Positions 2,448-22,182 of a stretch of 64,000 nucleotides of DNA are shown piece after piece. This DNA comes from Paenibacillus humicola. GTDB taxonomy: Bacteria > Bacillota > Bacilli > Paenibacillales > Paenibacillaceae. Where the stretch lies: assembly GCF_028826105.1 (NCBI RefSeq), contig NZ_JAQGPL010000001.1:5525501-5589500 (forward strand). Direction: 5' to 3'. The translations under genes were made by a program, and so were the position numbers. The notes under the pieces were generated by a model. The model ran no database searches. It saw nothing but the letters and a program-made list of their open reading frames with translations, and was not told the DNA's origin. Positions within the stretch are counted from its first letter, which is position 1; every line of letters starts with the position of its first letter.

Positions 2448-3182
2448 TTATACCGCTTTCTTAACGAAATAGATCCAGCCGGAGGCCAGAAACAGTACGA
2501 AGCTTCCGCCGATGACGAGCAGCAGCGTCGCCGCAGGTACGGCAAACGCGCCGTAATTGTAATTGCCGGCATGCGGCATCATGGCGAGCAGCGGCTGCGC
2601 CCATGGATAATACGGGCCGTAATGCGCTGAATTGACGATCAGCAGGTTCGGAATCGTGAATATCACATTCACGGCCATCGGGGCCGCGAAATTCGGCCAT
2701 GCCGTCGATACGGCAAGCTGCAGCGCCGCAAGCGGCAGGCAGGCGGCCCAGCCGCCGGCGGCCGAACGCAGCAGCTCCGCCCAGGGCACCTCTCCGGCGA
2801 ACCCGAGCGACGTGCCGATCAGCAGCAGCGCCGCCAGAAACAGCAGCTGCGTTACGGCGATCAGCAGCATGACGAACAGAAATTTCACGAGATACACCTG
2901 ACTTCGGGAAACCGGCAGCGCCAGCAGCTGCTTCCATCCGCCGCCGGCATGCTCATACCGGCAAACGAGTCCGGCGAAAATACCGGTAAGCATCGGCAGA
3001 AACAAGAGCGCATGCAGCGCCGCCATCAGCTGGAGCGCCGTCAGCCAAGGGGCGCCCGTCTGAACGGTGCTCTGCGCGTTCAGCAGGACGACGAGCCCCG
3101 CGGCAATCGGGCTGACGACCGCAAGCAGCCATACGACGGTGCCGCGCACCTTGAGCCACTCGGAACGAATCATGCGAATCAT
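2448..3182 (-). CDS. ABC-2 type permease, LanG/LanE-like
   Basis: This 244-residue permease is the last gene of a three-gene transporter operon. It has six hydrophobic segments and begins with the short cytoplasmic stretch MIRMIRSEWLKVRGT common to ABC-2 permeases. The sequence between segments 2 and 3 (AGGWKQLLALPVSRSQVYLVKFL) matches the 'wk.llalPvsR...yl.K' signature shared by lantibiotic immunity permeases (LanE/LanG/MutE type). It abuts the preceding permease gene with no gap between stop and start. It presumably forms a heterodimeric channel with that protein, driven by the ATPase at 3896-4810. Confidence 0.85.
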   Translation of the reverse strand: MIRMIRSEWLKVRGTVVWLLAVVSPIAAGLVVLLNAQSTVQTGAPWLTALQLMAALHALLFLPMLTGIFAGLVCRYEHAGGGWKQLLALPVSRSQVYLVKFLFVMLLIAVTQLLFLAALLLIGTSLGFAGEVPWAELLRSAAGGWAACLPLAALQLAVSTAWPNFAAPMAVNVIFTIPNLLIVNSAHYGPYYPWAQPLLAMMPHAGNYNYGAFAVPAATLLLVIGGSFVLFLASGWIYFVKKAV

Positions 3183-3899
3183 CTACTTCACATCCTTCCG
3201 GGCGAAATGGACCGCGCCGGCCAGCAGCAGAACAGCGCCGAGCGCAATGCCGGCGGCGACCGGATAAAGCGGATGGTCCGCCGTGCCGACCAGGTACGGC
3301 CAATAATACGGCATCGCGTCGCCGAAGCGGCTGGCGAACAGGGAAAAGACGGTGCCCGCGATGCCGAAGGTCAGCGGCACGGCCTGGTTCTGGATCGTGA
3401 CGGACAACCATACCTGCAGCGCGATGAAGGGTACGATCGCCAAAAAAGGGTAAAAGGCCTTTTCGAGCAGCTGTACATACGGAAGACTCGACATGTTGAG
3501 GCCCAGCGCGGCGCCGAACGCCGCCGTACCGGCCGCAAGGAGCGTGCTGGAGCACAAGAGCAGCAGCGCATTCAGCAAAAATTTGCCCGTGAATACCTGA
3601 GTCCGGGTGACCGGCAGCGCCAGCGTCATTTTCCAGGCGTTCGTCTGGTGCTCGATCCCCGCCGTCATGGAGGTGATGATCGCAAGTCCCATGAACAGCG
3701 TCGGCACCATGAGCGAGAAGACGTTGGAGAAGACGCCGCCCCACGGATCAGCCTTATAAATCTTCATCAAATAGTCGTAGCGAAGGCCGAAATTGACCGC
3801 CTGCAGCCCGACTACCCCAAGCGGCCCGAGAAAGATCAGAAACCAGATCATCTTCCTGCGAATCTTAAGCAGCTCGGCGGAAAGCACCCGCAGCGTCAT
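3183..3899 (-). CDS. ABC-2 type permease, LanE/LanG-like
   Basis: This 238-residue, six-segment membrane protein is paralogous to the permease downstream. It shares the same signature between segments 2 and 3 (NAWKMTLALPVTRTQVFTGKFL). Its start overlaps the end of the ATPase gene by four bases (ATGA), so it is translated in a coupled manner. In the LanFEG family, two different permeases of about this size pair with one ATPase. They expel membrane-active peptides or protect lipid II from them. No peptide biosynthesis gene is present in the window, so a role in resistance to external peptides is more likely than self-immunity. Confidence 0.85.
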   Translation of the reverse strand: MTLRVLSAELLKIRRKMIWFLIFLGPLGVVGLQAVNFGLRYDYLMKIYKADPWGGVFSNVFSLMVPTLFMGLAIITSMTAGIEHQTNAWKMTLALPVTRTQVFTGKFLLNALLLLCSSTLLAAGTAAFGAALGLNMSSLPYVQLLEKAFYPFLAIVPFIALQVWLSVTIQNQAVPLTFGIAGTVFSLFASRFGDAMPYYWPYLVGTADHPLYPVAAGIALGAVLLLAGAVHFARKDVK

Positions 3900-4810
3900 A
3901 AGCTCCCCTCCCCGCCGGTCATGCCGAGGAAGATGCTCTCAAGCGAAGCGCCCTCCTCCTCCACCCGGTAGACGGCGAAATCGTTTCGCACGAGGGCGGC
4001 GACCATCGCGGCGACGGTCTCGTCGGGCGCCATGTCGACGGTCAGCCGGCTCCGGTCCCAATCGGCTTTGTACCCGCCGGCGAGCAGCAGCCGCCAGGCC
4101 TCCTCCGGATCGCTGACGCCAAGCCGGATTTTGCTCTGCGCCCGCTGCCGCAGCGTATCGATTTTATCCTGGAAAATGATCTGCCCTTTGGCGATAATGC
4201 CGACCCGTGTCGCCATCTGCTCGATCTCCGACAGCAGGTGACTCGAGACGAGCACCGTAACGCCCTGCTCGCGGGGCAGGCTCTTGATCAGCTCGCGGAT
4301 CTCGAGGATGCCCGCCGGATCGAGCCCGTTCGTCGGCTCGTCCAGGATGAGCAGCTCCGGCTTGCCGAGCAGCGCGGTCGCGATGCCGAGCCTTTGCTTC
4401 ATGCCGAGCGAATAGCCCTTGACGGCCCGCTTCGCCTCCTTGGTCAGGCGGACCGTGGCGAGCGCCTCGTCGATGCGCGATTTGGGGACGTCCAGCAGCC
4501 GGCGCACCGCCTCCAAATTTTCGACCGCGCTCAAATGGCCGTAATACGAAGGATATTCGACCAGTGAGCCGACCTTGCGAAGGACGGCCATCCGGTGCTT
4601 GCGCATATCCCGGCCGAAGATGCGGATACCCCCGTGCGTCGGCTTCGCCAGACCGAGCAGCATGCGGATCGTCGTCGTTTTGCCCGCGCCGTTCGGCCCG
4701 AGAAAGCCGTAAATATCCCCTTTTGCCATTTGAATGTTCACATCGCTGACGACGGCTCTTCCGCCCAGCTTCTTCGTGAGCCGCTCCGTCTGCAAAATCC
4801 ATTCGTTCAT
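3896..4810 (-). CDS. ABC transporter ATP-binding protein, LanF-like (E-loop)
   Basis: This 304-residue ATPase is the first gene of the transporter operon. It has Walker A GPNGAGKTT at residues 38-46, the signature YSLGMKQR, and Walker B LLILDEPTNGLDP. The segment after the core reads GSLVEYPSYYGHLSA: a glutamate (about residue 85) stands where most ABC proteins have the Q-loop glutamine. The LanF subfamily of lantibiotic immunity ATPases is known for this E-loop. The C-terminal 80 residues form the extra domain seen in peptide and antibiotic ABC exporters. The ATG at 4810 is used. A direct-repeat operator lies 58 bases upstream (4869-4890). Confidence 0.92.
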   Translation of the reverse strand: MNEWILQTERLTKKLGGRAVVSDVNIQMAKGDIYGFLGPNGAGKTTTIRMLLGLAKPTHGGIRIFGRDMRKHRMAVLRKVGSLVEYPSYYGHLSAVENLEAVRRLLDVPKSRIDEALATVRLTKEAKRAVKGYSLGMKQRLGIATALLGKPELLILDEPTNGLDPAGILEIRELIKSLPREQGVTVLVSSHLLSEIEQMATRVGIIAKGQIIFQDKIDTLRQRAQSKIRLGVSDPEEAWRLLLAGGYKADWDRSRLTVDMAPDETVAAMVAALVRNDFAVYRVEEEGASLESIFLGMTGGEGSL

Positions 4811-4868
4811 TGCTGATCACCTCGGTAACAATCGTAATCGGTCAAGTTTAAAGCAAAGCGGTGGCGGC

Positions 4869-4890
4869 GTTTAAAATCCGTTTAAAATTC
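4869..4890. promoter_or_regulatory. Direct-repeat operator in front of the LanFEG-like operon
   Basis: Two copies of GTTTAAA lie 11 bp apart (GTTTAAAATCC then GTTTAAAATTC), one helical turn, as expected for a dimer of an OmpR-type regulator. A third GTTTAAA at 4846-4852 is 23 bp from the nearer one, about two turns. Eighteen of the 22 bases are identical to the site at 26608-26629, upstream of the OmpR-type two-component genes. Both sites end about 60 bases before their start codons. No convincing -35/-10 pair is visible; TTTAAA at 4847-4852 could serve as a weak -10. Confidence 0.65.
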
Positions 4891-5031
4891 GTCCGCCCAA
4901 TGCCGGTTTTCGGCCAAAAAAGAGACCGCCCCCGTGACCGGCGGTGTTTGCTGCATCGCACCTAGCAGTAATTTGTTCCCGCGCTCTTGGCCTGATCGTT
5001 TCACTTCACTCAAATGCTGAAGGTATGGCGG
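4891..5031. other. Intergenic stretch with an isolated hairpin
   Basis: No gene is visible between the transporter operator and the tyrS promoter. At 4914-4945 the leftward strand reads ACCGCC, a nine-base loop, GGCGGT, then CTCTTTTTT. This is terminator-like, yet no leftward gene lies upstream of it. It may insulate the transporter promoter from antisense transcription, or be a relic. Confidence 0.35.
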
Positions 5032-5061
5032 TTGACAAATCCGGGTAAAATTGTGTACAGT
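5032..5061 (+). promoter_or_regulatory. Sigma-A-type promoter of the T-box/tyrS transcript
   Basis: TTGACA at 5032-5037 and TACAGT at 5056-5061 are separated by 18 bp. This is the best promoter in front of the leader RNA, and it places the transcript start near 5068, just before the T-box stem I region. Confidence 0.7.
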
Positions 5062-5065
5062 ATTG

Positions 5066-5330
5066 CAAACGAATGGTTATACATGCTTGGAAGGGAATCA
5101 GTAGCTTTCGACACGTTGTCCCAGAGAGCCGGCGGCTGGTGCGAGCCGGTGCAAGTGCGAAGGTGAATTACGTCCTGGAGCATCCCGGTCCGAAACTGCC
5201 GCGCGCAGAAGGACGAGACGGCGGTCGGCCGTTATCCGATTGAGCGGAGCGTGCCGAGGCATGCTCAATGAGGGTGGTACCGCGAGAACTCGTCCCTGTC
5301 TTTGAGACAGGGGCGTTTTTTATTTTTTAT
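5066..5330 (+). ncRNA. T-box leader (tyrosine, specifier UAC)
   Basis: This leader senses uncharged tRNA-Tyr and controls tyrS by transcription antitermination. The T-box core AGGGTGGTACCGCG lies at 5271-5284 and contains the UGGN that pairs with the tRNA acceptor end. The intrinsic terminator is CGTCCCTGTC, a five-base loop, GACAGGGGCG, then T6 (5291-5325). The overlapping antiterminator alternative uses AGAACTCGTCCC. The likely specifier is TAC at 5169-5171 followed by a purine, which matches tyrosine and the downstream gene. Stem I starts near 5120. Confidence 0.93.
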
Positions 5331-5351
5331 CCTATCGGAGGTAAGAGGGGT

Positions 5352-6638
5352 ATGGCGAATATGACAGCAGCAGGCGTCGATCTATTGGAGGATTTGGAGT
5401 ACCGCGGCCTGATTTACCAGGTGACGGACCGCGAAGGGCTGGACAAAAAGCTGAAGGAAGGGCGGGTCACGCTGTACAGCGGCTACGACCCGACGGCAGA
5501 CAGCCTGCATATCGGGCACCTGCTGCCGATCTTGATCCTGCGCCGCTTTCAGGAGGCGGGACATAACGCGATCGCGCTGGTCGGCGGCGGCACGGGCCTT
5601 ATCGGCGATCCGAGCGGCCGTTCGTCGGAGCGTACGCTGAATACGGCGGATACCGTGGCGATGTGGACGGAAAGTCTGAAGCGGCAGCTGACGCGCTTTC
5701 TGGATTTTGAACGCAAGGATAATCCGGCCAAGCTCGTGAGCAACTACGATTGGCTTGCGCCGCTGGATATGATCACGTTCCTGCGGGATATCGGCAAAAA
5801 CTTCACGGTCAACTATATGCTGGCGAAGGATTCCGTCGATTCGCGCCTTGCGAACGGGATCTCTTTTACGGAATTCAGCTACATGATTCTGCAGTCGTAC
5901 GATTTCTACAAGCTGCATGTCGATCATGGCGTCACCCTGCAGGTTGGCGGCAGCGACCAATGGGGCAACATTACGGCGGGCCTCGACCTGATCGGCAAAA
6001 TGGGCGGGGGCGGCGCCTTCGGCCTGACGCTCCCGCTCGTAACGAAGAGCGACGGCAAGAAATTCGGCAAGTCCGAATCGGGCGCCGTGTGGCTGGACCG
6101 CAGCAAAACGTCGGTCTACCAGTTCTACCAGTTCTGGATCAACACCGACGACAACGACGTCATCAAGTTTCTGAAATACTTCACTTTCCTGACTCGCGAT
6201 CAGATCGAGGCGCTTGAAGAGGAGCTGAAGCAGGCGCCCGAAAAGCGAATCGCCCAGCGGGAGCTTGCCCGCGAGGTTACGCGTTTGGTGCATGGCGAAG
6301 ACGCGCTCGTCAGCGCCGAGAACATTACGCAGGCGCTGTTCTCCGGAGACGTTACCCAGCTGAAAGAGGAAGAGCTGGTCGAGGCGCTGCAGGATATGCC
6401 GACCACCGTGCTGTCCGGGCGGACCGAAATCGGCCTGATCGACCTGCTGGTCGAGACGAAGGCGGCGCCTTCCCGCCGCCAGGCGAAGCAGGACATCGAG
6501 AGCGGCGCTGTGCACGTTAACGGCGTCAAAACGACCGCTGCGGACGCCGTGATCACCGCCGGCGAGCGGCTGCACGGCAAGTTCATCGTCCTGCGCCGCG
6601 GCAAAAAGAATTACTTCCTGGTGCGCTGCGAGCCGTAA
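5352..6638 (+). CDS. tyrS: Tyrosyl-tRNA synthetase
   Basis: This cytoplasmic class I synthetase charges tRNA-Tyr with tyrosine. It is 428 residues long, normal for the bacterial TyrS family. The Rossmann-fold catalytic domain carries the HIGH motif (residues 53-56) within YDPTADSLHIGHLLP. The KMSKS-equivalent loop reads KFGKS at about residue 237. The tyrosine-binding region includes GSDQWGN. A C-terminal S4 RNA-binding domain (SRRQAKQDIESGAVHVNG) ends the protein. I chose the ATG at 5352, with GGAGG ten bases upstream; earlier in-frame codons lie inside the T-box terminator. Expression is controlled by the leader at 5066-5330. Confidence 0.98.
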   Translation: MANMTAAGVDLLEDLEYRGLIYQVTDREGLDKKLKEGRVTLYSGYDPTADSLHIGHLLPILILRRFQEAGHNAIALVGGGTGLIGDPSGRSSERTLNTADTVAMWTESLKRQLTRFLDFERKDNPAKLVSNYDWLAPLDMITFLRDIGKNFTVNYMLAKDSVDSRLANGISFTEFSYMILQSYDFYKLHVDHGVTLQVGGSDQWGNITAGLDLIGKMGGGGAFGLTLPLVTKSDGKKFGKSESGAVWLDRSKTSVYQFYQFWINTDDNDVIKFLKYFTFLTRDQIEALEEELKQAPEKRIAQRELAREVTRLVHGEDALVSAENITQALFSGDVTQLKEEELVEALQDMPTTVLSGRTEIGLIDLLVETKAAPSRRQAKQDIESGAVHVNGVKTTAADAVITAGERLHGKFIVLRRGKKNYFLVRCEP

Positions 6639-6662
6639 ACACCGGCCTTCCCGCACCAAGCC

Positions 6663-6696
6663 AACTGGCCTTGCCGCAGCAAGGCCAGTTTATTTT
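6663..6696 (+). terminator. Intrinsic terminator of tyrS
   Basis: A perfect 12-bp stem (AACTGGCCTTGC, loop CGCA, GCAAGGCCAGTT) is followed by TATTTT, 25 bases after the tyrS stop. Confidence 0.93.
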
Positions 6697-6748
6697 GGCA
6701 TGGTAAGGGACTTTATAGGTAGTTCACGGTACTATCTTGATCTATTTA

Positions 6749-7096
6749 TCAATTGATCGAATTTGCAATCTCACTCATTTTTTCCTTCTTTAAATTTCCA
6801 CTGTCCATTTGTAAATAAGTCCCATCTTGTACCCATCGTAAATATCCCCCGGGTTTGTTATGAACCCAAGGGACAAATCTCGCTTCAACTCCGCTTATGT
6901 TAGCTTTCTCCCCACTTAAATCAAATTTAAAATTCTCAACCACAGTTCTGGTTTTACTCGTTTTATTACGAACATCGATAATGGTTTCTTCTCTTTTGAT
7001 TTTAACCAGCCATCGGCTCGCCCGATGCAATAACGAGTTCATTTGATTCCATCGACAGTATGTAATAGAGACGAGTGAAAATATCCATTTAAACAG
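6749..7096 (-). CDS. Small hypothetical protein in AT-rich island, possible CTG start
   Basis: I do not recognise this protein with certainty. From the first ATG (7042) it has 97 residues. The C-terminal part (GYLRWVQDGTYLQMDSGNL, then KEKMSEIANSI) resembles the end of DUF4367-like domains. The frame stays open upstream of that ATG. It reaches CTG at 7096, six bases after GGAGGG. Starting there adds a short hydrophobic N-terminus (FKWIFSLVSITY) that could anchor the protein in the membrane. No ATG, GTG or TTG lies between. The gene may use CTG, may start at 7042 without a good ribosome site, or may be a remnant. Base composition is much richer in A+T than in its neighbours. Confidence 0.5.
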   Translation of the reverse strand: MFKWIFSLVSITYCRWNQMNSLLHRASRWLVKIKREETIIDVRNKTSKTRTVVENFKFDLSGEKANISGVEARFVPWVHNKPGGYLRWVQDGTYLQMDSGNLKKEKMSEIANSIN

Positions 7097-7159
7097 AATA
7101 ATCCCTCCATAATTAATTCGGGTTCTTTTCCTAATTTAAAAAGTACGCTCGCCTTGAAA

Positions 7160-7723
7160 TCATCTGTTCTTGTAATCCATCACTTCAACTGGAATTGATG
7201 GTTTATTATGTTCTGTTTTCCATCCCTCAATCAGCCATTCATATAGTTCGGGGGATTTTGCTCGCAAGTTTATTGAGACGCTGCTTAGAACAATCTCGTC
7301 TTTTATTGCGCCACAACTTTTAATTGTAACAGTTTGTGTTTCGGGAATGTATATATCAGCCGGAGATTTCTTGAGCTTAATACACTTGTAGCCGGGCTCA
7401 ACGAAAATGGGTTTCCCTGCATTGAATTGAATTTTTAAAATCCTAGGGTATCCGTGCCTGCCATAATCGGGTTGAGTCCCGAGAGGAACCGAAGAATTAA
7501 TCCAGCCTCCAATTTTTGTGATTAGAGCTTTTCCAGTCCCATCCGAGAATTTATATAAAGGCGAGGGTTTAGTTCTAGGGGGTCCCCCGACAACTTGGAT
7601 GGAAGCAATATCTTCGATCTGTAGTATTCGGTTTATGGGTTCAAACACAATGTTATTGGTCGTACAAGAAGTCATAACAAAAATAATGAAAGCAGCAGCC
7701 GGCAAAATACAGCGATTTTTCAA
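7160..7723 (-). CDS. Hypothetical lipoprotein
   Basis: This 187-residue protein has a signal peptide and a plausible lipobox (FVMTSC, cysteine at about residue 20), so it is probably anchored to the outer face of the membrane. The mature part has no family I can name. It is mainly beta-rich in appearance, with two further cysteines (YKCIKL and IKSCGAI) that could form a disulfide. I chose TTG at 7723 because GGAGG lies eight bases upstream. The ATG at 7738 overlaps that ribosome site (ATGGAGG). It lies just upstream of, and in the same direction as, the small gene at 6749. Both are AT-rich, which suggests a separate origin from the flanking DNA. Confidence 0.65.
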   Translation of the reverse strand: MKNRCILPAAAFIIFVMTSCTTNNIVFEPINRILQIEDIASIQVVGGPPRTKPSPLYKFSDGTGKALITKIGGWINSSVPLGTQPDYGRHGYPRILKIQFNAGKPIFVEPGYKCIKLKKSPADIYIPETQTVTIKSCGAIKDEIVLSSVSINLRAKSPELYEWLIEGWKTEHNKPSIPVEVMDYKNR

Positions 7724-7994
7724 TCGTGCAACCTCCATTTTATCGTTGGTTCTTTCTCCCTATATTCTGCCCTGAGTATTGTTCTTCATTGCGAAGTTTT
7801 TCTGAACAGCAATCCGCCGGATTTAATCGATGGAACGAGCGTTCTCATAAAACGCTTGGCAGGATGAATCCCGAATTTTTAAATTTTTCCTTATCCGCAT
7901 ACTGGGAAGTCCGAATTATTTGAGCAATCCAGAAGAAACGCTGTGCCGCTTTAAGTGATACCATTTAAGAAAAATAGGAAAGGAGCAGATCGAA

Positions 7995-8762
7995 ATGGCG
8001 GAAGACGCACACAATATTCAATTTCCCCAAATTGTATCCCGAGAAGAATGGCTTATTGCCCGCAAGGATCTTCTAATCAAAGAGAAGGAGGCCACCCGGG
8101 CAAGAGATGCATTGAATTCTGCGCGGCGCCGGCTCCCCATGGTTAAAATTGAAAAAACGTACGTCTTCGATGGGCCGGACGGCAGAGTCAGCCTGCCGGA
8201 CTTGTTCGACGGCCGTTCTCAGCTCATCGTCGGCCATTTTATGTTCGATCCGAGCTGGGAGAGGGGCTGCCCGGGCTGCTCGGCCGGCGCTGACGAAATG
8301 TCCGACGGCCTCTTTAAACATTTACATGCCCGCGACACCGCTTTCGTTTACATTTCACGCGCTCCACTGGAAAAAATAGAAGCCTACAAGACTCGGAAGG
8401 GCTGGCGATTCCCTTGGTACTCCTCACACGGAAACGACTTTAATTATGATTTCCACGTTACGCTGGACGAGCGTGTCGCTCCGGTCGAGTACAATTACCG
8501 GACCAAGGCGGAGTACGAGCAGTTGGGCAAGCCATTACAAGTCGGTACGGGGAAGTCCATCGAGTTACCGGGACGAAGCTGTTTTCTCCGGTTCGGAGAC
8601 GATGTTTTTCACACCTACTCCGTTTACGCCCGCGGTCTCGAACAGGCTGGCGGGGCTTATTATTTCCTGGATGAGACTGCGCTCGGCCGGCAAGAAAATT
8701 GGGAAGAACCGCAAGGACGCGCGAGCGCAGTTCGCGGCTCGAACCCAAGTTTTTCGGATTGA
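7995..8762 (+). CDS. DUF899 thioredoxin-like protein
   Basis: This 255-residue cytoplasmic protein belongs to the DUF899 family, which has a thioredoxin-like fold. Family landmarks include the N-terminal REEWLIARKDLL, the strand block KTYVFDGPDGRVSLPDLFDG, and the cysteine motif RGCPGCS where peroxiredoxins and thioredoxins carry active-site cysteines. The sequence FYISRAPLEKI-like segment and KGWRFPWYSSHGNDFNYDF are also typical. The enzymatic role is not established for the family. AAAGGAG lies about ten bases before the ATG. It stands alone, ending at a shared bidirectional terminator. Confidence 0.88.
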   Translation: MAEDAHNIQFPQIVSREEWLIARKDLLIKEKEATRARDALNSARRRLPMVKIEKTYVFDGPDGRVSLPDLFDGRSQLIVGHFMFDPSWERGCPGCSAGADEMSDGLFKHLHARDTAFVYISRAPLEKIEAYKTRKGWRFPWYSSHGNDFNYDFHVTLDERVAPVEYNYRTKAEYEQLGKPLQVGTGKSIELPGRSCFLRFGDDVFHTYSVYARGLEQAGGAYYFLDETALGRQENWEEPQGRASAVRGSNPSFSD

Positions 8763-8814
8763 ACCGCCGACCGCCGCACGCCGAACCCGCAGACGTAAAG
8801 CTTCCATCATGAAG

Positions 8815-8858
8815 AAAAAAATGCCCTTTGACCGCCGAAAAACGGCAAGGGCATTTTC
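8815..8858. terminator. Bidirectional terminator between convergent genes
   Basis: ATGCCCTT and AAGGGCAT flank an inner CCG/CGG pair. There is an A-run on the left and a TTTTCT run on the right, so the structure can end both the DUF899 gene and the leftward VOC gene. Confidence 0.75.
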
Positions 8859-8905
8859 TATGTCGCCAGGGACCTGCCATGCACCGAGCAGCCAAGTGAC
8901 CTACA

Positions 8906-9820
8906 TTATCCCTTGAATGCTCTTTGCAGCTCCGCAAGATCCAATTTTTTCATTTTAAGAAAAGCCTTCGTTACTCGCGCGATTTGCTCCGGCGTCCCCT
9001 TGCCCATCATCTCGTCCATCTCGCTCGGCGCAATTTGCCAGGACAGTCCAAACCGATCCTTCAGCCAGCCGCATTGCTCGGCCTCGGGAACCGCCGAGAG
9101 CTTGTCCCAATAGTAATCCATCTCTTTTTGATTGTCGCAATAAACCATGAAAGAGACGGCTTCGTTAAAGCTGAAGGAATGCTCTCTCGCACTGTCCATT
9201 GCGGCAAACCATTGATTCTCAAGCATGAAATCAGAGAACATGACGGTTCCTTCTCTGTCCGGTTCCATGCCTTGAGGGTAACGGGCCATCAGGCCCTGCT
9301 TTGAGTTCTGAAATACGGATGAATAAAAATGAATCGCTTCTTCCGCCTGGCCGCATTTATCGCCGGTAAACATGAGCGACGGCATGATCGCAGGCCGTTC
9401 TTCACCCTCCGGATCGGTAACGATTAACTGCCAGGACAAACCATACTTATCTTGAATCCAGCCATACCGCTCACTGAACGGATATTTATCGAGCGGCATT
9501 AACGCCGTGCCGCCTTCGGACAATTTGTTCCAAACCTGATTGATGTGTTCGCTCGCGTCCTTGTCTCGAGATGGGTCGAAATGAACGATGAAAGACACCG
9601 ACGGATTGAACTTGAAAAATGGACCTGCGCTGATTGCCATAAACTTCTGGCCCCACAGCTCAAAAGAGACGAGATCGGAGTCGCCGGAAGGAGTGTCGCG
9701 GAGAGTTGTTCGATTCGTAATTGCGGAGTCCGGGAATAGGGAAGTATAAAACTCCGCCGCTTCATTCGCCTCCTTGTCATACCATAAATGCGGAACGATG
9801 GTTTGGATTGTTTTTGTCAT
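8906..9820 (-). CDS. VOC-family (PhnB/glyoxalase-like) protein with two domains
   Basis: This 304-residue protein contains two tandem PhnB-like VOC domains. The first spans about residues 5-135 (VPHLWYDKEANEAAEFYTSLF to YGWIQDKYGLSWQLI). The second spans about 150-270 (PSLMFTGDKCGQAEEAIHFYSSVF to CGWLKDRFGLSWQIA). Such proteins include glyoxalase/bleomycin-resistance-like enzymes and proteins annotated as 3-demethylubiquinone methyltransferase-like. The substrate cannot be told from sequence. I chose the ATG at 9820 because AGGGGG lies seven bases before it; an earlier in-frame ATG at 9847 has no ribosome site. Confidence 0.88.
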   Translation of the reverse strand: MTKTIQTIVPHLWYDKEANEAAEFYTSLFPDSAITNRTTLRDTPSGDSDLVSFELWGQKFMAISAGPFFKFNPSVSFIVHFDPSRDKDASEHINQVWNKLSEGGTALMPLDKYPFSERYGWIQDKYGLSWQLIVTDPEGEERPAIMPSLMFTGDKCGQAEEAIHFYSSVFQNSKQGLMARYPQGMEPDREGTVMFSDFMLENQWFAAMDSAREHSFSFNEAVSFMVYCDNQKEMDYYWDKLSAVPEAEQCGWLKDRFGLSWQIAPSEMDEMMGKGTPEQIARVTKAFLKMKKLDLAELQRAFKG

Positions 9821-9918
9821 CGTATTCCCCCTAATCTTCCGATTCATTTTTTATTTAGTGTACCACTATTGTTCGGTTTCCATTTCTTATCGATTGCTGA
9901 AAAATATTGCTCCTTTAT

Positions 9919-10325
9919 TTACCATCCCATACGTTGCTTCAGCGAAGCGATTTGCGCCAAGCGGCGAAACGAATGTGCACGGCTTCCAAGAGTCTCAGGG
10001 AAGGTTCAAGCGGCAGTTGATAATCGCTCAGCTCCGCCCACACATCCTCCCGGTATGAACTTGCTGCCGGATGATCCTCCGTCAGCGCTCTTTTGAACCG
10101 AATAAAGGCGTTCATACCGTTATCAGCCATATGGTGAACGACCTGACGGATCGTCCAGCCTCCTGGACGGTAGGGAGAACGCAGCTGTTCCTCGGTCAGG
10201 TTTGCCACCGTCAACCGAAGGATCTCTCCCGTTCTCACAAGCTCCTCGATCCATCTGTTCCGCTGTTCTGGAGTCGGATCTTGAACGGGCGCAAATTTCC
10301 CGATCGGATAACGAAGTTCATCCAT
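9919..10325 (-). pseudogene. Decayed YfiT/BstA-like DinB-family gene (internal deletion)
   Basis: The reading frame gives a normal YfiT start (LRYPIGKF, then DPTPEQRNRWIEEL) and the first metal-binding region (GGWTIRQVVHHMADNGMNAF). It stops after LLEAVHIRFAAWRKSLR at 9939, about 40 residues early. In the next frame the DNA just past the junction reads RRLAQIASLKQRMGW followed by a stop. This matches the normal C-terminus of YfiT (IAHITELSRRMGW in the Bacillus protein, recalled from memory). About 40 codons carrying the C-terminal histidine ligands have therefore been deleted and the frame shifted. The original product would have been a metal-dependent bacillithiol transferase-like protein. 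The ATG at 10325 has GAGGGG upstream. Confidence 0.8.
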
Positions 10326-10411
10326 CGGCTCATCCCCTCTTTCGCTGATGTGATGCATCTATATTACCATGAAAGTATCACAAAAAACGGAAGAAATTGG
10401 TTTTATTTTAA

Positions 10412-10444
10412 CAAAAACCAGCCCCTCCAAAAGGCTGATTTTTC
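10412..10444 (-). terminator. Possible weak terminator
   Basis: On the leftward strand CAGCC, a nine-base loop and GGCTG are followed by GTTTTTG. The stem is only five pairs, so confidence is modest. It would back up the stronger terminator at 10496. Confidence 0.45.
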
Positions 10445-10495
10445 GCGGCCGTCATGGCTCTCAGACCGTTTTCTTCAACCTATGAACCTTTAATT

Positions 10496-10527
10496 CAAAA
10501 AGGCTGCTTCCCATCCGGGAAGCAGCC
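10496..10527 (-). terminator. Intrinsic terminator of the leftward carbohydrate operon
   Basis: A perfect 11-bp stem (GGCTGCTTCCC, four-base loop, GGGAAGCAGCC) is followed on the leftward strand by TTTTTG. It lies 220 bases past the last gene of the long operon. Confidence 0.85.
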
Positions 10528-10745
10528 AGTCGATGCGCGGCTGCGCGATCAGTGTGGTCTATGCAATCTGTCGCGATCCGTTGCATTATGTCATAAATTG
10601 TTGTATTCCGTCGATATCTGTCGTGGTCCATATACGATGTTGCGTTTTGTTACGATCGGGCACCACCTGAAAGAGGTTTTCCCCCACCCCTCGCACCATG
10701 TTCGACAAAGCATTCCGATTTTGCAAATAATTCCTGTCGATCGGT

Positions 10746-11678
10746 TTAGAAATCGTCCCGTGGGTTCCGCCAGGAATACTGCGGCTCGTACCCCAGCTTC
10801 TCGCGCAGCTTGCGGCACGTAATAAGGCCCTCCGTTCCTTCCAAGCGGGCGGCCATCTCTTTCAGATCAGGCCAGTGGCGTTCGACGACCGTCCGCGTAT
10901 CCTCCCAGTGCCTGCTGTCCGTATGCAGGTAGAACGCTTCGAACAAATCGAGATTGGTCGCCTCAAGCGCCAGCGTGAATGCCTGCGCCGCATCGCGCGG
11001 ATCGATATATTGATGCGTTGTGCCGATCGGCCCGCCGACATGATCCGGACGCGCTTCCGGCGTAATATTATATTTGTACATCTCGCGCTGGAACGGGTAA
11101 TCCACGCCGTTAAGGCGGAAGGCGACGGTCCGAATGCCGTAGGCCAGTCCGAACGCCTTCAACGTTTCCTCGTTGATGAGCTTGGACAGGCTGTAGGAAT
11201 CCTCCGGCCGCAGCGGATGCTCTTCGTCAATGGGCAAATAATCGACCTGGAACGGCCTCCCGCTGATTCGAAAACCGAGTCCGAGCACATAGTACGTCGA
11301 AGCCGCAACGATGGTCTTCACATGGAATCGGCGGGCCGCATCCATCAGGTAATAAGTTCCCATCGCGTTCACCCGCATCGTCTCGTCTTCCGGCATGCGC
11401 TGAATGCGGACGCGTCCGGGCTGCAGCGTCGTATCGTGCGTAATGGCTCCGAGATGGACAATCGCGTCCGCACCGGATATGTGGATCGCGCGCATATTGT
11501 CCTCGAGCGACGTCAAGTTTCCTTTAATAAACCGGACTCCCTTCGGAAAATGCTCCGGATCGGGCGATACGACATCAAACGCCGACACCTGATAATTGCG
11601 CTCCAGCAAATAATCGATGGTAAAGCGGGCCAGACGCCCGGCCCCTCCGGTTACCAGCACGTTTCGGGCTGCCGTCAT
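10746..11678 (-). CDS. NAD-dependent epimerase/dehydratase (extended SDR)
   Basis: This 310-residue enzyme has the N-terminal dinucleotide-binding motif TGGAGRLA (residues 8-15 region). The catalytic tyrosine and lysine appear in SYSLSK (about residue 158). An acidic residue (FDVV) ends the second strand, favouring NAD over NADP. It belongs to the UDP-sugar epimerase-like extended SDR group and most likely oxidises or epimerises a sugar or sugar acid. AAGGAG lies eleven bases before the ATG at 11678; the GTG four codons earlier overlaps that site. As the last gene of the operon behind two TIM-barrel isomerases, it probably takes part in breaking down the sugar imported by the ABC system. Confidence 0.88.
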   Translation of the reverse strand: MTAARNVLVTGGAGRLARFTIDYLLERNYQVSAFDVVSPDPEHFPKGVRFIKGNLTSLEDNMRAIHISGADAIVHLGAITHDTTLQPGRVRIQRMPEDETMRVNAMGTYYLMDAARRFHVKTIVAASTYYVLGLGFRISGRPFQVDYLPIDEEHPLRPEDSYSLSKLINEETLKAFGLAYGIRTVAFRLNGVDYPFQREMYKYNITPEARPDHVGGPIGTTHQYIDPRDAAQAFTLALEATNLDLFEAFYLHTDSRHWEDTRTVVERHWPDLKEMAARLEGTEGLITCRKLREKLGYEPQYSWRNPRDDF

Positions 11679-11716
11679 CGTTTTTTTCACTCCTTATTTT
11701 AAGTCGGGTCAAACCG

Positions 11717-12598
11717 TTACACGGTCCGAAAGTTGTCGTATCCGAGCCGCTGCAGGTAACGTTTGCTCGTCTCGATCGCCTCAAGCGGCGTCATCATCGG
11801 ATGACCCTTGCGGGTTGCGCTCCACTGATTGCCGTCCAGCTCGACCGAGGCATAATGGCCGTACCCGCGCTCTTCCAAATAGCCGAGGATGCCTGGGATA
11901 TCGACAGCTCCCATGCCGAGCGGCGTGTATCCGAGAAATCCGGTGGGATCGATTTCCTTTCCTTCCGCATCCCGCTGTACCGGTCCGCCGATATAATCCT
12001 TGACATGCACCATGCGAATCAGCTCGTAATACTCCTTGATCAATCGGAACGGGTCGGAGCCTCCCTTGGCGATCTGACCGAGGTCCGGCGCGAAAGCGAC
12101 GACACTCGAATCGACCGCGTTCATGACGCGGTGAATTTCATCCTCCGTCTCGACGGGTGTTCCGGTATGCGGATGAAAGCAGCACAGCAGTCCCTGATCG
12201 GTTATCCGCCTGCCCAATTCGTTTAAGGTCGCTGCGATGGCGTCCATATGCTCTGCGATGGCAAAGCCGCTGCGCTGCAGCATCATGCCGCCGATGACGA
12301 CGACGGGACCGTTAAATTTGTTGTACAATTCGACCCATTCCATCACCTGCCGAATGCCGTCCTCGCGCTTGCCCGGATCGACGAGATCCAAATGGCAGTA
12401 CAGGGACGTCAATTGCAGCCCGCTGCGCTGCACGGCCTCCGGCAGATCGCGTCCGCTGCGCTCCCATTCGTCCAGCACCCAGCCGAACGTTTCCGTTCCC
12501 CAGTAGCCGCACGAGCCGATGGCTTCGATCGCCTGCTGCACCTGGTCGTTATCCCAAGTAATGGCCGTGTGCCCGATCCGGATGTTAGGCTTCGTCAT
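11717..12598 (-). CDS. Sugar phosphate isomerase/epimerase (xylose isomerase-like TIM barrel)
   Basis: This 293-residue protein has the fold of the AP endonuclease 2/IolE family. Typical metal-ligand blocks are visible: CFHPHTGTPVETEDEI, a VAFAPDLGQIAKGG segment with an aspartate, HVKDYIGGP with a metal-binding histidine, and YASVELDG with the glutamate. Members isomerise keto-sugars or dehydrate inosose. The exact substrate is not evident. GGAGG precedes the ATG at 12598, and the start lies 14 bases inside the upstream isomerase gene, so translation is coupled. A second paralogue next door suggests two consecutive steps on the same sugar. Confidence 0.85.
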   Translation of the reverse strand: MTKPNIRIGHTAITWDNDQVQQAIEAIGSCGYWGTETFGWVLDEWERSGRDLPEAVQRSGLQLTSLYCHLDLVDPGKREDGIRQVMEWVELYNKFNGPVVVIGGMMLQRSGFAIAEHMDAIAATLNELGRRITDQGLLCCFHPHTGTPVETEDEIHRVMNAVDSSVVAFAPDLGQIAKGGSDPFRLIKEYYELIRMVHVKDYIGGPVQRDAEGKEIDPTGFLGYTPLGMGAVDIPGILGYLEERGYGHYASVELDGNQWSATRKGHPMMTPLEAIETSKRYLQRLGYDNFRTV

Positions 12599-13544
12599 GG
12601 TTCTCCTCCGCGTTCCTGATTTTCTCTTCAAGCAAATTCTTCATATACCGGATTCCCCGCTCAAAATAGTCGTATTCCTGCTCCAACCGGTCCCGGTCCG
12701 GGTCCCACGCCATCCAGCCCGGCTCGATCAAAAGGTGCAGGCCTTCGGCGCGGGGACTATGCTTCTCGAGAAGATCGACGGCGAGCGACAAATCGACATG
12801 TCCTTCTCCGAGGGCGCACCCCTGCGCGGTCATCGGAATATATCCGCGCACCGGCATATCGACAATGACCATATCTTTCATATGGGTCGTAAACGTATAG
12901 GGTGCCATCGCTTCCATATCGTCCCGCGGATCGCAAAATACCGTAAACCCGTTGGCCGTATCAAGCGCCGCTCCCACGTTCGGAAGGTCCATCCGATCGA
13001 ACAGATACGCCATCTCGCGCCCGGTAAAATCGCAATGATTTTCGACCGCGAGGTCCAGTCCTGCGTCCGCCGCGATTTTCCCCGCCTCGCGCAAAGCCGG
13101 GACCAGAGAGTCCAGATGCTCGCGCACGCCGAGGCTCCGGTTGAAGCGGCTCGTCTTGACGTTCAGCCGGCCGTAGCCGGTCCGCACGACCGGCATGCCG
13201 AGAAGACTCGCCGCCCCGATCGCGTTCACGAACCGCGACCTGGCCTCGGCATCCGCATGGGGGCCGCTTACGCCAAAGGCGCCGGGCGCGGTAAGCTCCA
13301 GCTCCATGCCGAGCGAATCGGCCAGCGCCTTGATTTCGAGCAGCCTGCCCCTATCATCCGGCAGATGCCCGAATCCGATCTGGTGTACCGTGCAGCCCAA
13401 AGCGGCCAGCCGGCGGATTTGCCATTCCGTAATGCCGTCCTTCGGCATGCCTTCAGGCGCCGGATAGAAACCGCCCTGCACGCCGATTTTCATGGAACGG
13501 AGCCTCGTGCCCGCATTCCGGTCCGTTTGCAGCAGATCAGCCAT
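12585..13544 (-). CDS. Sugar phosphate isomerase/epimerase (TIM barrel)
   Basis: This protein of about 319 residues is of the same AP endonuclease 2/xylose isomerase-like family as its downstream neighbour. Visible family blocks are DLAVENHCDFTGREMA with the conserved Glu and His, LPNVGAALDTANG with the metal-binding aspartate, TTHMKDMVIVD, and LLIEPGWMAWD. The ATG at 13544 has AAAGGA about ten bases upstream. The family's usual beginning (MKIGVQGGFY) sits at a later ATG, 13493, so 17 residues at the N-terminus are uncertain. It follows the solute-binding lipoprotein gene after a strong intercistronic hairpin. Confidence 0.83.
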   Translation of the reverse strand: MADLLQTDRNAGTRLRSMKIGVQGGFYPAPEGMPKDGITEWQIRRLAALGCTVHQIGFGHLPDDRGRLLEIKALADSLGMELELTAPGAFGVSGPHADAEARSRFVNAIGAASLLGMPVVRTGYGRLNVKTSRFNRSLGVREHLDSLVPALREAGKIAADAGLDLAVENHCDFTGREMAYLFDRMDLPNVGAALDTANGFTVFCDPRDDMEAMAPYTFTTHMKDMVIVDMPVRGYIPMTAQGCALGEGHVDLSLAVDLLEKHSPRAEGLHLLIEPGWMAWDPDRDRLEQEYDYFERGIRYMKNLLEEKIRNAEENHDEA

Positions 13545-13598
13545 TCGTTCCCCGTCCTTTCCGAATTTGTAAATGAGGAATCGGCATACCGTCACCGC

Positions 13599-13627
13599 AG
13601 CGGGGAGAACTCATCGTTCCCCCCGCT
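13599..13627 (-). other. Intercistronic mRNA hairpin behind the solute-binding protein gene
   Basis: On the leftward strand AGCGGGGGGAAC, a five-base loop and GTTCTCCCCGCT form a 12-bp stem with one G-U pair and no U-run. It lies 17 bases after the solute-binding protein stop and 55 bases before the next start. Such a structure usually protects the 3' end of the abundant binding-protein message rather than ending transcription. Confidence 0.6.
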
Positions 13628-13643
13628 TCGATAACATTGCCGC

Positions 13644-15302
13644 TTACGATTTCCCTTTCCAGTTCTTGTCGTATTCGGTTTGTTGAATCTTGAGGAATTG
13701 GTCGAGCCCGATATTTTTCAGTTCGGACAGATACGTATCCCAATCCTTCTCGATATCCCGGTTGCCGACGATGAAGTCGGCGGTAGCCGCTTCATAATAT
13801 TTCTTCAGATCCTGATGGAGCTGATTGTACTGCTGGGCGGTATCGGGATCGAAGAAGAACTTCGGTACGGAAACCTTTTCCGCGTATTGGTCATAGCCTT
13901 TCGCTGCGTCGTACAGCGAGGTTTCGAGGTCGAATTGACCGGCGGGCAGCTTCGAGCGCGCGTCGGAGCCCCAGCGCTGCCATATGCTGTTGGCGCCGTG
14001 CCAATGCGCTTTCTGCGGGTCCTGCCAAATGTCGCTGCCGATAATCTCGAATTGCGCTTCGCCGCCGTTTGCCGCCACCGTGCCCGACTTCGGCTTATCC
14101 CAATTGACTCCCGGCGTGCCATAACGGCCTCTGGCGTTCGCATCCGCGGTGTATTGAAAATCGATCCATTTGATCGCCGCTTCCTTGTCTTTGACCGATG
14201 CGGGAATCATAAACTTGTACGAGCCAATCTCGCCGTAATCGTTGCGGTATGCATTCTGGAAGCCGCTCGGTCCTTTAAGCGGCATTACGATCTGATAGCG
14301 CAGCCTCGTGGCGTCGTTTGCCGCAAACACGTGCTGCCCGCCGCCGGCCACCGCGCCGACCGTCTCTCCGTTATTCAGCTCGACCGTCTGCTTCATTTGA
14401 TTTTCGTCGTTGGTAAATGCCGCGGGATCGATCAGCCCTTCTTTGTAAAGCTTGTTCAAATAACGCAGGCCGTCCCTCCACTCCGGCGTTGCATAAGCGG
14501 CGACGATTTTGTCGTTTTTGACATACAAGCCGTCGCCGTCAAAATAGGTAAACGCATGCAGGATAAACTGATGGATATTGGCGTACCAGCTCTTAGGCGA
14601 CCCGGTGATGCCGATTTCGTCCGCTTTCCCGTTGCCGTTCGGATCCTTTTCCTTCACCGCCTTCAAATATTGCTCCAATTCGTCCGTCGTCGTGGGCATC
14701 TTCATGTTCAGCTTCTTCAGGAAATCCGAGTTGATCCAGAAACGCATCGCCCGGTCGCAGTTGTAGCAGACCCCGAGCTCCCGCAGTCCGTAAATATGCC
14801 CGTCCGGCGCGGTGACCGACTTTTTCAAATCCGGGTACTGCTCGAACTGCTCCTTGATGTTGGGCGCGTATTTGTCGATCAGGTCCTCGAGCGGAATAAG
14901 CGCGTCTTGTGAGCCGTAAGTCGCCAGGAAGGAATTGTCGGCGCCAAAATCCCCCATGATCACGTCGCCCAGATCGCCCCCGGACGAGAGCTCGAGATTG
15001 AGCTTCTGGATCTTGTCGGCGTCCGGATACAGGTTCCACTTGATTTTGACATGCGTTTGATCCTGCTCCCATGTCGTCAGGTCGTTCTGGCCGTACTCGT
15101 ACGATAACGTGTTCGGCCAGCGCGGCGTCGTCACCGTCAGCGTGGCCAGCTGATCCGAGCCGCCGTCCTTGGACCCTTCCGCAGCGGTGCCGCCTTCGCC
15201 GCCGTTTTGCGTAGACGAGCCGGATTTCGAGCCCGAGCAGGCGCTTACAGCCATCATGACCGCAAGCAGTACAATCCATAAACCGCAGACCCTTTTTCTC
15301 AC
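13644..15302 (-). CDS. Extracellular solute-binding lipoprotein of a carbohydrate ABC transporter (second copy)
   Basis: This 552-residue lipoprotein captures a sugar or oligosaccharide outside the cell for the permeases encoded upstream. A signal peptide ends in the lipobox VSAC (cysteine at about residue 22). A Gly/Ser-rich tether (GSKSGSSTQNGGEGGTA) follows. The mature part has the long LplA/YtcQ type of family 1 binding proteins, with DLGDVIMGDFGADN, GHIYGLRELG and FWINSDFLKKLNMK. I chose GTG at 15302, nine bases after GGGAG; TTG at 15308 is too close to that site. It is the second binding protein in the same operon, the other being at 17334-18659. Confidence 0.9.
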   Translation of the reverse strand: MRKRVCGLWIVLLAVMMAVSACSGSKSGSSTQNGGEGGTAAEGSKDGGSDQLATLTVTTPRWPNTLSYEYGQNDLTTWEQDQTHVKIKWNLYPDADKIQKLNLELSSGGDLGDVIMGDFGADNSFLATYGSQDALIPLEDLIDKYAPNIKEQFEQYPDLKKSVTAPDGHIYGLRELGVCYNCDRAMRFWINSDFLKKLNMKMPTTTDELEQYLKAVKEKDPNGNGKADEIGITGSPKSWYANIHQFILHAFTYFDGDGLYVKNDKIVAAYATPEWRDGLRYLNKLYKEGLIDPAAFTNDENQMKQTVELNNGETVGAVAGGGQHVFAANDATRLRYQIVMPLKGPSGFQNAYRNDYGEIGSYKFMIPASVKDKEAAIKWIDFQYTADANARGRYGTPGVNWDKPKSGTVAANGGEAQFEIIGSDIWQDPQKAHWHGANSIWQRWGSDARSKLPAGQFDLETSLYDAAKGYDQYAEKVSVPKFFFDPDTAQQYNQLHQDLKKYYEAATADFIVGNRDIEKDWDTYLSELKNIGLDQFLKIQQTEYDKNWKGKS

Positions 15303-15395
15303 ATGCAATTTCTCCCTTCAATCTGGTTTATATAATCATCCCGATTGCCCGCCTGAGGCGGACGGATCGGCTGGTTATATCGTTGGCGCAGCCGA

Positions 15396-16292
15396 TCAGC
15401 CCTTGATCGACCCGATCATTACGCCTTTGACGAAATGCTTCTGAACGAACGGGTAGACAAGCCATACCGGCAGGCTGGCGACGATAATGATGGAGAATTT
15501 CACCAGGTCGGCCAGCCCCTGCTTGCGCATCATCGATTCCGGGTCCGTTATCGTCGTCGGGTCGATATCGTTCTGCACCAGAATGTCCCGCAGCACGATT
15601 TGCAGTGGAAAGAGATGGTCGCTCTTCAGAAAAATGAACGCATTAAAATACGAATTCCAATGATAGACGCCGTAAAACAGCACGAGCACCGCCGTAATCG
15701 CTTTGGAGAGCGGCAGCACGATATGCCAGATGAACTTCACGTGCGAGCATCCGTCGATTGCCGCCGCCTCGTACAGCTCCGGGCTGATGCTCGTCTGGTA
15801 GAACGTCCGGGCGATAATGACGTTGAAGACGCTGAGCCCGGCCGGAAGCAGCATGGCCCACCTCGTGTCGATCATATGCAGGTTCTTGATCAGCAGATAG
15901 GTGGGAATCAGCCCGCCGTTAAACAGCATGGTGAACGCGAAAATATACATGATGAGATTCCGCCCGGCCATGCTTTTTCGCGAAAGGGGGTAAGCGGCCA
16001 TAATGGTCAGCGTGATGTTGATGAGCGTCCCTGCGACCGTGTAGATGACCGTATTCGTATAGCCGAGCACGATTCTCGGATCGCGGAAGACGGCCGCATA
16101 GCCCTCCAGCGAGAAATCGACCGGCCACAGAACCACTTTACCCGTGACGACGGCTTCCCTGCCGCTGAATGAAGCGCTAAACACGTAAATCAACGGGTAT
16201 AAGACGACCAGCAGCGCGAACAGCAGCAGCAAATCATTGATCAGGTAAAAGGTTTTGTCCGATCGGGACAGCGCCAATTTCGATTCCTTCAT
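15396..16292 (-). CDS. Carbohydrate ABC transporter permease, YtcP/LplC type
   Basis: This 298-residue inner-membrane permease of the MalG-like family has six hydrophobic segments. The cytoplasmic EAA loop that docks on the ATPase reads ELYEAAAIDGCSHVKFIWHIVLPLS. The C-terminus ends in HFVKGVMIGSIKG, typical of YtcP/LplC proteins. AGGAGG lies seven bases before the ATG at 16292, and the gene overlaps the stop region of the other permease. No ATPase is encoded nearby, as is usual for these systems, which share an MsmK/MsmX-type ATPase encoded elsewhere. Confidence 0.93.
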   Translation of the reverse strand: MKESKLALSRSDKTFYLINDLLLLFALLVVLYPLIYVFSASFSGREAVVTGKVVLWPVDFSLEGYAAVFRDPRIVLGYTNTVIYTVAGTLINITLTIMAAYPLSRKSMAGRNLIMYIFAFTMLFNGGLIPTYLLIKNLHMIDTRWAMLLPAGLSVFNVIIARTFYQTSISPELYEAAAIDGCSHVKFIWHIVLPLSKAITAVLVLFYGVYHWNSYFNAFIFLKSDHLFPLQIVLRDILVQNDIDPTTITDPESMMRKQGLADLVKFSIIIVASLPVWLVYPFVQKHFVKGVMIGSIKG

Positions 16293-16303
16293 CGCTCGTC
16301 CTC

Positions 16304-17275
16304 CTACCACAGGCTGGTTTCGCCGACTTTTTTGGCAATCTGGTTGACCGTCATGATCAGGACCAAGTTCACGAACGAGTTAAAAAAGCCGATCGCCGTT
16401 GCGTAAGAGTAGTTCGGCGCCGACGATGCAAGACTGACGGAGTACACATAGGTCGAAATGACTTCGGACGAGGCCAGGTTTAACGGGTTCTGCATCAAAT
16501 AAATTTTCTCGAAGCCGATGCCCATCATTTGCCCCATATGCAGGATCAGCAGCGTAACGATCGTCGGTGCGATGCCGGGCAGGTCCACGTGCCAGATCCG
16601 CTGCAGCCGGCTCGCCCCGTCGATGGTCGCCGCCTCGTGAATTTCCGGGCTGATGCCGGAGAGCGCCGCCAAGTAGATAATCGTACCCCAGCCTGCGTTT
16701 TGCCAGATGCCGGACCACACATAGATCGACTTGAACAAGGAAGGCTCGCCCATAAAATTGATCGGCTCGATGCCGAGGTGACCCAGCGCAATATTGACGA
16801 TGCCGATTCGCGGATTGAGAAACTGCAGGATAATCCCGACCATGACAACCGTTGAGATAAAATAGGGCATATACGTAATGAACTGAACCGCCTGCTTGAA
16901 CCTCGTCCGCATGGTGGCGTTCAGGGCAAGCGCCAGAATGATCGGAATCGGAAAACCCGCAACCAGCTCGTAAACGCTGAGGAGCAGCGTATTTCCGACG
17001 GTGCGGACGAACTGGTACGACTCGAAAAACCGGATAAAATGCTTCAGGCCCGCCCACGGGCTGCCCCAAATGCCCTGCATAATATGAAAATCCTTGAACC
17101 CCAGCTGCAGGCCGTACATGGGTCCGTATTGAAAAATGATCAGCCATGCGAAAGGAAGCGAGAGAATCAAGTAGAGCTGATAGTCGAGCTTGATTTGTTT
17201 CCAGAGCCGCCTGCGGCGGATGGCGGCCGGACGCTCGGAATAAGCCGCCTCCGCGGAAACTGAATTAGCCGGCAT
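16304..17275 (-). CDS. Carbohydrate ABC transporter permease, LplB/YteP type
   Basis: This 323-residue MalF-like permease has a cytoplasmic N-terminal extension, then six hydrophobic segments starting near residue 35 (LYLILSLPFAWLIIFQYGPMY). The EAA loop is EIHEAATIDGASRLQRIWHVDLPG. The ending NQIAKKVGETSLW is typical of LplB. It forms the heterodimeric pore with the permease at 15396. GGAGGG lies six bases before the ATG. An imperfect cre-like palindrome (17296-17307) lies just upstream. Confidence 0.93.
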   Translation of the reverse strand: MPANSVSAEAAYSERPAAIRRRRLWKQIKLDYQLYLILSLPFAWLIIFQYGPMYGLQLGFKDFHIMQGIWGSPWAGLKHFIRFFESYQFVRTVGNTLLLSVYELVAGFPIPIILALALNATMRTRFKQAVQFITYMPYFISTVVMVGIILQFLNPRIGIVNIALGHLGIEPINFMGEPSLFKSIYVWSGIWQNAGWGTIIYLAALSGISPEIHEAATIDGASRLQRIWHVDLPGIAPTIVTLLILHMGQMMGIGFEKIYLMQNPLNLASSEVISTYVYSVSLASSAPNYSYATAIGFFNSFVNLVLIMTVNQIAKKVGETSLW

Positions 17276-17295
17276 ATTTACCCTCCTTTTACAAC

Positions 17296-17307
17296 GAAAG
17301 CACTTTC
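17296..17307. promoter_or_regulatory. Cre-like palindrome before the permease gene
   Basis: GAAAGCACTTTC is a perfect 12-bp palindrome. Extended on the leftward strand it reads TGAAAGTGCTTTCG, which has three departures from the cre consensus TGWAANCGNTNWCA. It lies between the binding-protein stop and the permease ribosome site. It could be a weak CcpA or LacI-family site, or a small mRNA hairpin. Confidence 0.35.
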
Positions 17308-17333
17308 AAATTTGGCTGTGGCGAGGCTTCGAA

Positions 17334-18659: not shown

Positions 18660-18742
18660 CGTGGCCCTCCTATGAATGATGATAATCGTAAAATGCGCTC
18701 TGCACGATGCGGTACTTCTGACTTTTAGGTTGAAGATTCCGA

Positions 18743-21321: not shown

Positions 21322-21376
21322 GTCATGGCCCCCTTTTTCGCGAAAATAGTCGTCTAAAGGATCCGGCAGTCTCTTT

Positions 21377-22167: not shown

Positions 22168-22182
22168 GGAGAGAAGCCTATC

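Follow-up and report, generated by a model that had tools for sequence, protein, structure and literature searches.

The passages of PMC5786555 that deal with Clostridioides difficile describe CprABC as an ATPase of 26 kDa with permeases of 238 and 252 aa, CprK as a kinase with a 113-aa extracellular loop, and CprR as a separate response regulator; cprABC lies beside cprK, and cprR is distant. A similar set of genes is found in the 64-kb stretch of DNA analysed here (the window; Table 1). As in Cpr, to the extent that it is described there, one ATPase is combined with two different permeases of around 240 aa (304, 238 and 244 aa here), and a kinase with a sizeable outer loop (about 130 aa here, 113 aa in CprK) is accompanied by a separate response regulator. 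Set against the same passages, the present locus differs in that the regulator gene adjoins the kinase while the transporter is found 20 kb off, and in the longer ATPase (304 aa versus 26 kDa). BceAB-BceRS, as far as that source treats it (PMC5786555), also joins a two-component system to an ABC transporter for peptide defence, but its permease of about 650 aa with a large extracellular loop is absent here, and the kinase described here has an outer domain, in contrast to the intramembrane sensing described for that system. The simplest reading is that the module would be of the Cpr type in function, a type that confers resistance to lantibiotics.

The LanFEG immunity transporters (NisFEG, SpaFEG) share with this locus their three-subunit layout and a glutamate in place of the Q-loop glutamine. 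Residue E85 of the ATPase aligned with the Q-loop glutamine of ABCA3 and ABCA4 and was invariant in 13 orthologues; an E-loop in place of the Q-loop, as E85 provides, is what we take to be a trait of LanF-type ATPases. No paper on the LanF E-loop was found in a shallow search of open-licence PMC papers. Unlike LanFEG transporters, all three subunits scored below the NCBIfam cut-offs. The best match of the ATPase was TIGR03740 (lantibiotic protection subunit), and since its 260.3 bits lie below the cut-off of 309.75, we describe it as a LanF relative and not as a formal member of that family. The permeases reached 43.4 and 50.4 bits against TIGR03733 (cut-off 117.2), and 31.7 and 36 bits against TIGR03732 (cut-off 145.2). 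Each permease of a Cpr-type module would be expected to have six transmembrane helices; a simple hydropathy scan gave six peaks per permease, two of them overlapping, and thus five separate stretches. A further difference from LanFEG loci is that the ORFs scanned with Pfam in the DNA separating the operons gave no match to a lantibiotic synthesis family. In the kinase, two hydrophobic segments flank the outer domain of approximately 130 residues (about 40-168), which had no sequence match in a PDB profile search, because none of the 50 matches began before profile position 190. Some 3 kb leftwards of the transporter (L188:13411-15212), outside the window, there is a second kinase-regulator pair with 30-35% identity.

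Table 1. Features of the two operons, their candidate operators and the DNA between them, in coordinates of the window
Feature	Coordinates	Strand	Remarks
ABC-2 permease 2	2448-3182	minus	244 aa; LanE/G-like, weak MutG/MutE matches
ABC-2 permease 1	3183-3899	minus	238 aa; LanE/G-like, weak MutG/MutE matches
ABC ATPase	3896-4810	minus	304 aa; LanF-like, E85 replacing the Q-loop glutamine
-10-like hexamer, transporter operon	4831-4836	minus	TACGAT, 9 nt after half-site C; predicted
Half-site C, transporter operator	4846-4852	minus	TTTAAAC, 16 nt after B
Half-site B, transporter operator	4869-4875	minus	11 bp from A
Half-site A, transporter operator	4880-4886	minus	TTTAAAC on the minus strand
Block of about 20 kb between kinase and transporter	4811-24478		Absent from the junction in four same-genus relatives
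Sensor histidine kinase	24479-25879	minus	466 aa; HAMP, HisKA, HATPase
OmpR/PhoB-type response regulator	25876-26547	minus	223 aa; Response_reg, Trans_reg_C
-10-like hexamer, regulator operon	26580-26585	minus	TATCAT, 22 nt after half-site B; predicted
Half-site B, regulator operator	26608-26614	minus	
Half-site A, regulator operator	26619-26625	minus	

Operator architecture at the two promoters

The original prediction placed a direct repeat, GTTTAAA-N4-GTTTAAA, before both the regulator and the ATPase, and this description was confirmed in each particular. The 22-base stretches at 4869-4890 and 26608-26629 are equal at 18 of 22 positions, and the sites lie 21.7 kb apart. Their 18-bp cores end 58 bases 5' of the ATPase start (ATG, 4810) and 60 bases 5' of the regulator start (GTG, 26547), in the same orientation relative to their genes. 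Rather than many copies at unrelated places, a scan of the whole 5.93-Mb genome returned two exact copies, both inside the window. Markov models predicted 1.6e-4 to 2.7e-4 exact pairs per window and 0.015-0.025 per genome, the latter figure being scaled up from window composition with the half-sites treated as independent. When up to three mismatches were allowed, the window gave 10 matches against 2.02 expected, a number reached in none of 100 shuffles; these correspond to six separate places, because the core of the repeat is partly palindromic.

Searches with models built from relatives gave a similar result. A degenerate family consensus found the same two sites in the genome at zero mismatches; with up to one mismatch it gave 17 matches, versus 42 for the reversed control. 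A weight matrix trained on 49 sites (30 ATPase and 19 regulator promoters of the family) recovered, at scores of at least 14, only the two known sites in the window. The tripartite pattern, which includes the third half-site described below, gave one further match in the genome, with three mismatches, when up to three were allowed, as against five control matches. The clear sites in this genome are thus those at the pump and the regulator.

Comparison with orthologues indicated that the transporter operator is larger than first described, comprising also a third half-site and a -10-like hexamer at near-fixed spacing. All 30 family orthologues carry the pair of half-sites A and B, with up to three mismatches, no more than 300 bp from the start codon of the ATPase, and in all 30 promoters half-site C follows B by 15-16 nt (best of nine offsets). 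For 29 of the 30, a spacing of 9 nt from C gave the best -10-like hexamer (seven offsets tried, ties assigned to 9). Provided that this hexamer is used, half-site C spans roughly -28 to -22. Among the 30 regulator promoters of the family, 19 have an A and B pair with up to three mismatches and 11 lack such a box; the best hexamer lay 22-23 nt after B in every one of the 19. The direct repeat, with its 11-bp period and its position upstream of a -10-like hexamer, is an element that is conserved alongside the regulator. The proposal that the 11-bp period would suit a head-to-tail dimer of an OmpR-type regulator is supported by this comparison with relatives. A shallow search of open-licence PMC papers found no earlier report of the operator.

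A weaker site elsewhere in the genome was considered as a third target (G000:C1:351750; L219:4751-4768, minus strand). It scored 14.0 and has a third half-site and a TACGAT -10 hexamer before a 140-aa ORF with a SHOCT domain. This ORF is present in nine of 22 genomes of the genus, and the best box scores in the other eight ranged from -6.2 to 12.9. Three genomes (G003, G010 and G017) keep the -10 region of the SHOCT promoter in the absence of the ATPase. The low scores in relatives and the retention of the -10 region in ATPase-less genomes disfavour this site as a target, and the promoter probably belongs to another, related regulator.

Distribution of the pattern and its targets

We searched 394 genomes of the family for the tripartite pattern and found it in 252, whereas the reversed control was found in one. 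The ATPase was present in 300 of the 394 at a cut-off of E<=1e-85. Both were found in 248 genomes, the pattern only in four, the ATPase only in 52 and neither in 90, in a tabulation that ignores kinship and includes 30 genomes that helped define the pattern. None of 15 genomes with merely a weak ATPase match carried the pattern. Seventy family sites were read in two sets. An ATPase match followed in 52 (26 of the first 30, one of them a 37% match, and 26 of the next 40), and a kinase match was present just upstream in 49 (23 and 26, respectively). The other 18 (4 of 30 and 14 of 40) precede genes for PAF-acetylhydrolase-like, other alpha/beta-hydrolase, erythromycin-esterase-like and VanZ-like proteins, with Pfam support checked for 13 of the 18; the share of such targets is higher in the second set because 20 of its 40 sites were chosen on purpose from multi-site genomes.

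In a sample of the order, the pattern was found in 184 of 324 genomes, a number that includes many of the family genomes above, and the reversed control in three. Thirty loci from outside the family were read. Seventeen have the pattern before an ATPase match, one of which is weak (33%), two before an erythromycin-esterase-like gene and one before another gene. In the remaining 10 (L284-L293), all from one other genus, it precedes an ORF that resembles an FAD enzyme (named by eye), and no kinase or ATPase match was present within the 3-kb locus read. These 10 loci share a conserved TTTAAACTAAATTTAAACTAAAAAGAAGGTT-type element of different appearance, which fits the tripartite pattern and looks unrelated to the kinase module. 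Strict exclusivity of the pattern for the transporter was rejected, given the non-ATPase targets inside and outside the family.

A second collection, of 80 named loci fetched by kinase profile, contains 66 with an ATPase on the same strand, including loci from Bacillaceae, Caryophanaceae and Thermoactinomycetaceae. All 66 have a box before the ATPase that exceeds the 99th percentile of shuffle scores (8.8), and in five of them it falls short of the maximum among 2920 such scores (18.1); the 66 are not wholly independent, since the matrix was derived from 49 such sites and some named loci come from the same genomes. Across the 971,825 bp of these loci, 76 of 78 sites with scores of at least 18 fall at the promoters of the regulator or the ATPase. 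In L146, one of the other 14 loci, the ATPase gene is inverted onto the opposite strand, and the box stays with the ATPase. Among the 14 loci of the 80 without an ATPase on the kinase strand, L095 and L111 run off the end side of the contig, and no site downstream of the kinase reached a score of 14 in L123, L166 and L170. Eight pumpless loci of Neobacillus/Bacillus (L135, L136, L141, L150, L158, L160, L163 and L171) have a box on the downstream side of the kinase gene. It precedes a multi-pass membrane protein of about 360 aa in seven of them, and in L141 a 225-aa membrane protein that is followed by the one of about 360 aa. No Pfam match was obtained for the latter in the one protein tested (L135).

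A box before the regulator was seen in 16 of the 80 named loci. In a quick tree of 81 joined regulator and kinase rows, these 16 and the window formed one clade (SH-aLRT 100), such that the trait is accounted for by one change. The autoregulation that the original prediction had proposed thus holds up for the clade of the window and was rejected as a general feature of the module.

Separation of the kinase and transporter genes

In the window, 19.7 kb of DNA separates the kinase from the transporter, and the adjacency of Cpr-type modules is absent. Within the genus, the ATPase was found in five of 22 genomes (E<=1e-80) and the kinase at the same threshold in these five and G010, a genome that has weaker kinase matches only and no ATPase at E<=1e-80. 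At a threshold of E<=1e-125, the ATPase was found in 30 of the 394 family genomes. The kinase reached E<=1e-120 in 29 of them; in the thirtieth (G290), a 42% kinase adjoins the ATPase. Kinase and ATPase are on one strand and at most 5.4 kb apart in 28 of the 29, with the kinase upstream of the transporter in all 28 compared. The sole exception is the window genome, to which the separation is peculiar among those 29.

In the four same-genus relatives that were read, kinase and ATPase are adjacent. The thioredoxin, Rrf2 and DUF72 genes on the right-hand side of the regulator are common to all four. Left of the transporter, where one or two relatives were tested, these share a 411-aa protein and two further ones. 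A transcription-regulator-like ORF, the next gene on the left in the relatives, was not recovered here in a test with the ORFs of two of them. The matching flanks indicate that the window carries, between kinase and ATPase, a block of about 20 kb that is absent from this junction in those four relatives. Movement of the transporter itself is disfavoured, as genes on both flanks keep the order of the relatives. The module (regulator, kinase, operator and transporter) was probably once contiguous, to judge from the relatives. The transporter, termed 'orphan' in the original prediction, is indeed separated here, but looks so only because of this block, being adjacent to the kinase in the four relatives. 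Other DNA occupies the same junction in G050, G057, G058, G310 and G314 (Pfam run on three).

The block includes a tyrosyl-tRNA synthetase with a T-box leader, an AraC-type two-component system, ABC uptake genes and others. The leader (5079-5300, plus strand, 125.2 bits) is directly upstream of the synthetase ORF (5268-6638). The minus-strand genes at 13644-21321 encode an AraC-type response regulator, a Cache-domain kinase, two extracellular solute-binding proteins and two permeases, and are likely a sugar-uptake locus.

Proposed control of the two operons

Taken together, the comparisons with relatives support the original prediction of one operator common to the regulator and the LanFEG-like transporter, and both operons are very probably under the shared control of the regulator encoded in the window. 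We propose that the kinase would perceive a stress from outside, the likeliest being a peptide that acts on membrane or cell wall, and that the phosphorylated regulator would bind TTTAAAC-N4-TTTAAAC as a head-to-tail dimer. It would activate its own promoter from two half-sites, with the -10 element about 22 nt downstream, and the promoter of the transporter from three half-sites, the third lying shortly before the -10 element; the transporter would then remove the compound. Binding, phosphorylation, activation, the inducer, transport and resistance are what we infer from the genes and their relatives. Since each half of the module kept its own operator, control would work in trans despite the block of about 20 kb.

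A chance likeness between A/T-rich promoter elements might be suspected, as both sites are A/T-rich and promoter-proximal, but the excess of observed over expected sites across the genome and the conservation of the repeat in relatives led us to reject it, and its probability is negligible. A more substantial concern is whether the sites serve another OmpR-family regulator, either PhoP-like or a paralogue, that recognises a similar A/T-rich 11-bp repeat, with the neighbouring two-component system not being the main one. Paralogous regulators whose promoters lack the box have almost the same recognition helix, so that another regulator could use these sites, and the SHOCT promoters keep a similar TTTAAGG and a -10 element in members of the genus that lack the ATPase. 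Against this, the pattern tracks the module: the ATPase is present in nearly all genomes with the pattern and the pattern in none with only a weak ATPase match, and in both sets of family sites read the majority lie before an ATPase with a kinase upstream. We therefore regard control by another regulator as improbable.

The nature of the signal is less firmly indicated than the shared control. A membrane- or cell-wall-active peptide appears the probable signal, a view that derives from the type of pump and from VanZ-like targets elsewhere. The regulation could also be as proposed with a signal other than a peptide, for instance an ester-containing or macrolide-like antibiotic or general envelope stress, and with the pump as one of several detoxifying outputs. 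The hydrolase targets make other antibiotics or envelope stress conceivable signals, because outside this genome the pattern is also seen before genes for PAF-acetylhydrolase-like proteins and other alpha/beta hydrolases, for erythromycin-esterase-like proteins and for VanZ-like proteins. However, the window genome has clear sites at the pump and regulator only, and VanZ-like proteins and LanFEG-type pumps indicate cell-wall-active compounds. A non-peptide signal can be entertained tentatively.

A broader proposal, for and against which we see the case as evenly balanced, is that of an order-wide resistance regulon in which a rigid operator of three half-sites and a kinase-regulator pair are retained while the outputs are exchanged between species. 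These outputs would be the LanFEG-like pump, VanZ-like proteins, erythromycin-esterase-like and PAF-acetylhydrolase-like proteins and other alpha/beta hydrolases, with the membrane protein of about 360 aa taking the place of the pump in the Neobacillus/Bacillus clade. The pair in the window would then be a minimal and physically split form, and half-site C, absent from the autoregulatory promoter, may act as a brake or an element of ultrasensitivity at the output promoter.

An observation of two sites thus becomes a testable regulon, with a fixed geometry that predicts which genes would answer to one sensor, probably of antimicrobial stress, in hundreds of genomes. A common regulator would allow the ligand to be sought together with unannotated outputs such as the membrane protein of about 360 aa, the esterases and the VanZ-like proteins. 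The window offers a clean case of a module that was split by intervening DNA with a copy of the operator retained by each half, and the occurrence of the same signal before a related pump in many relatives suggests one widespread resistance switch.
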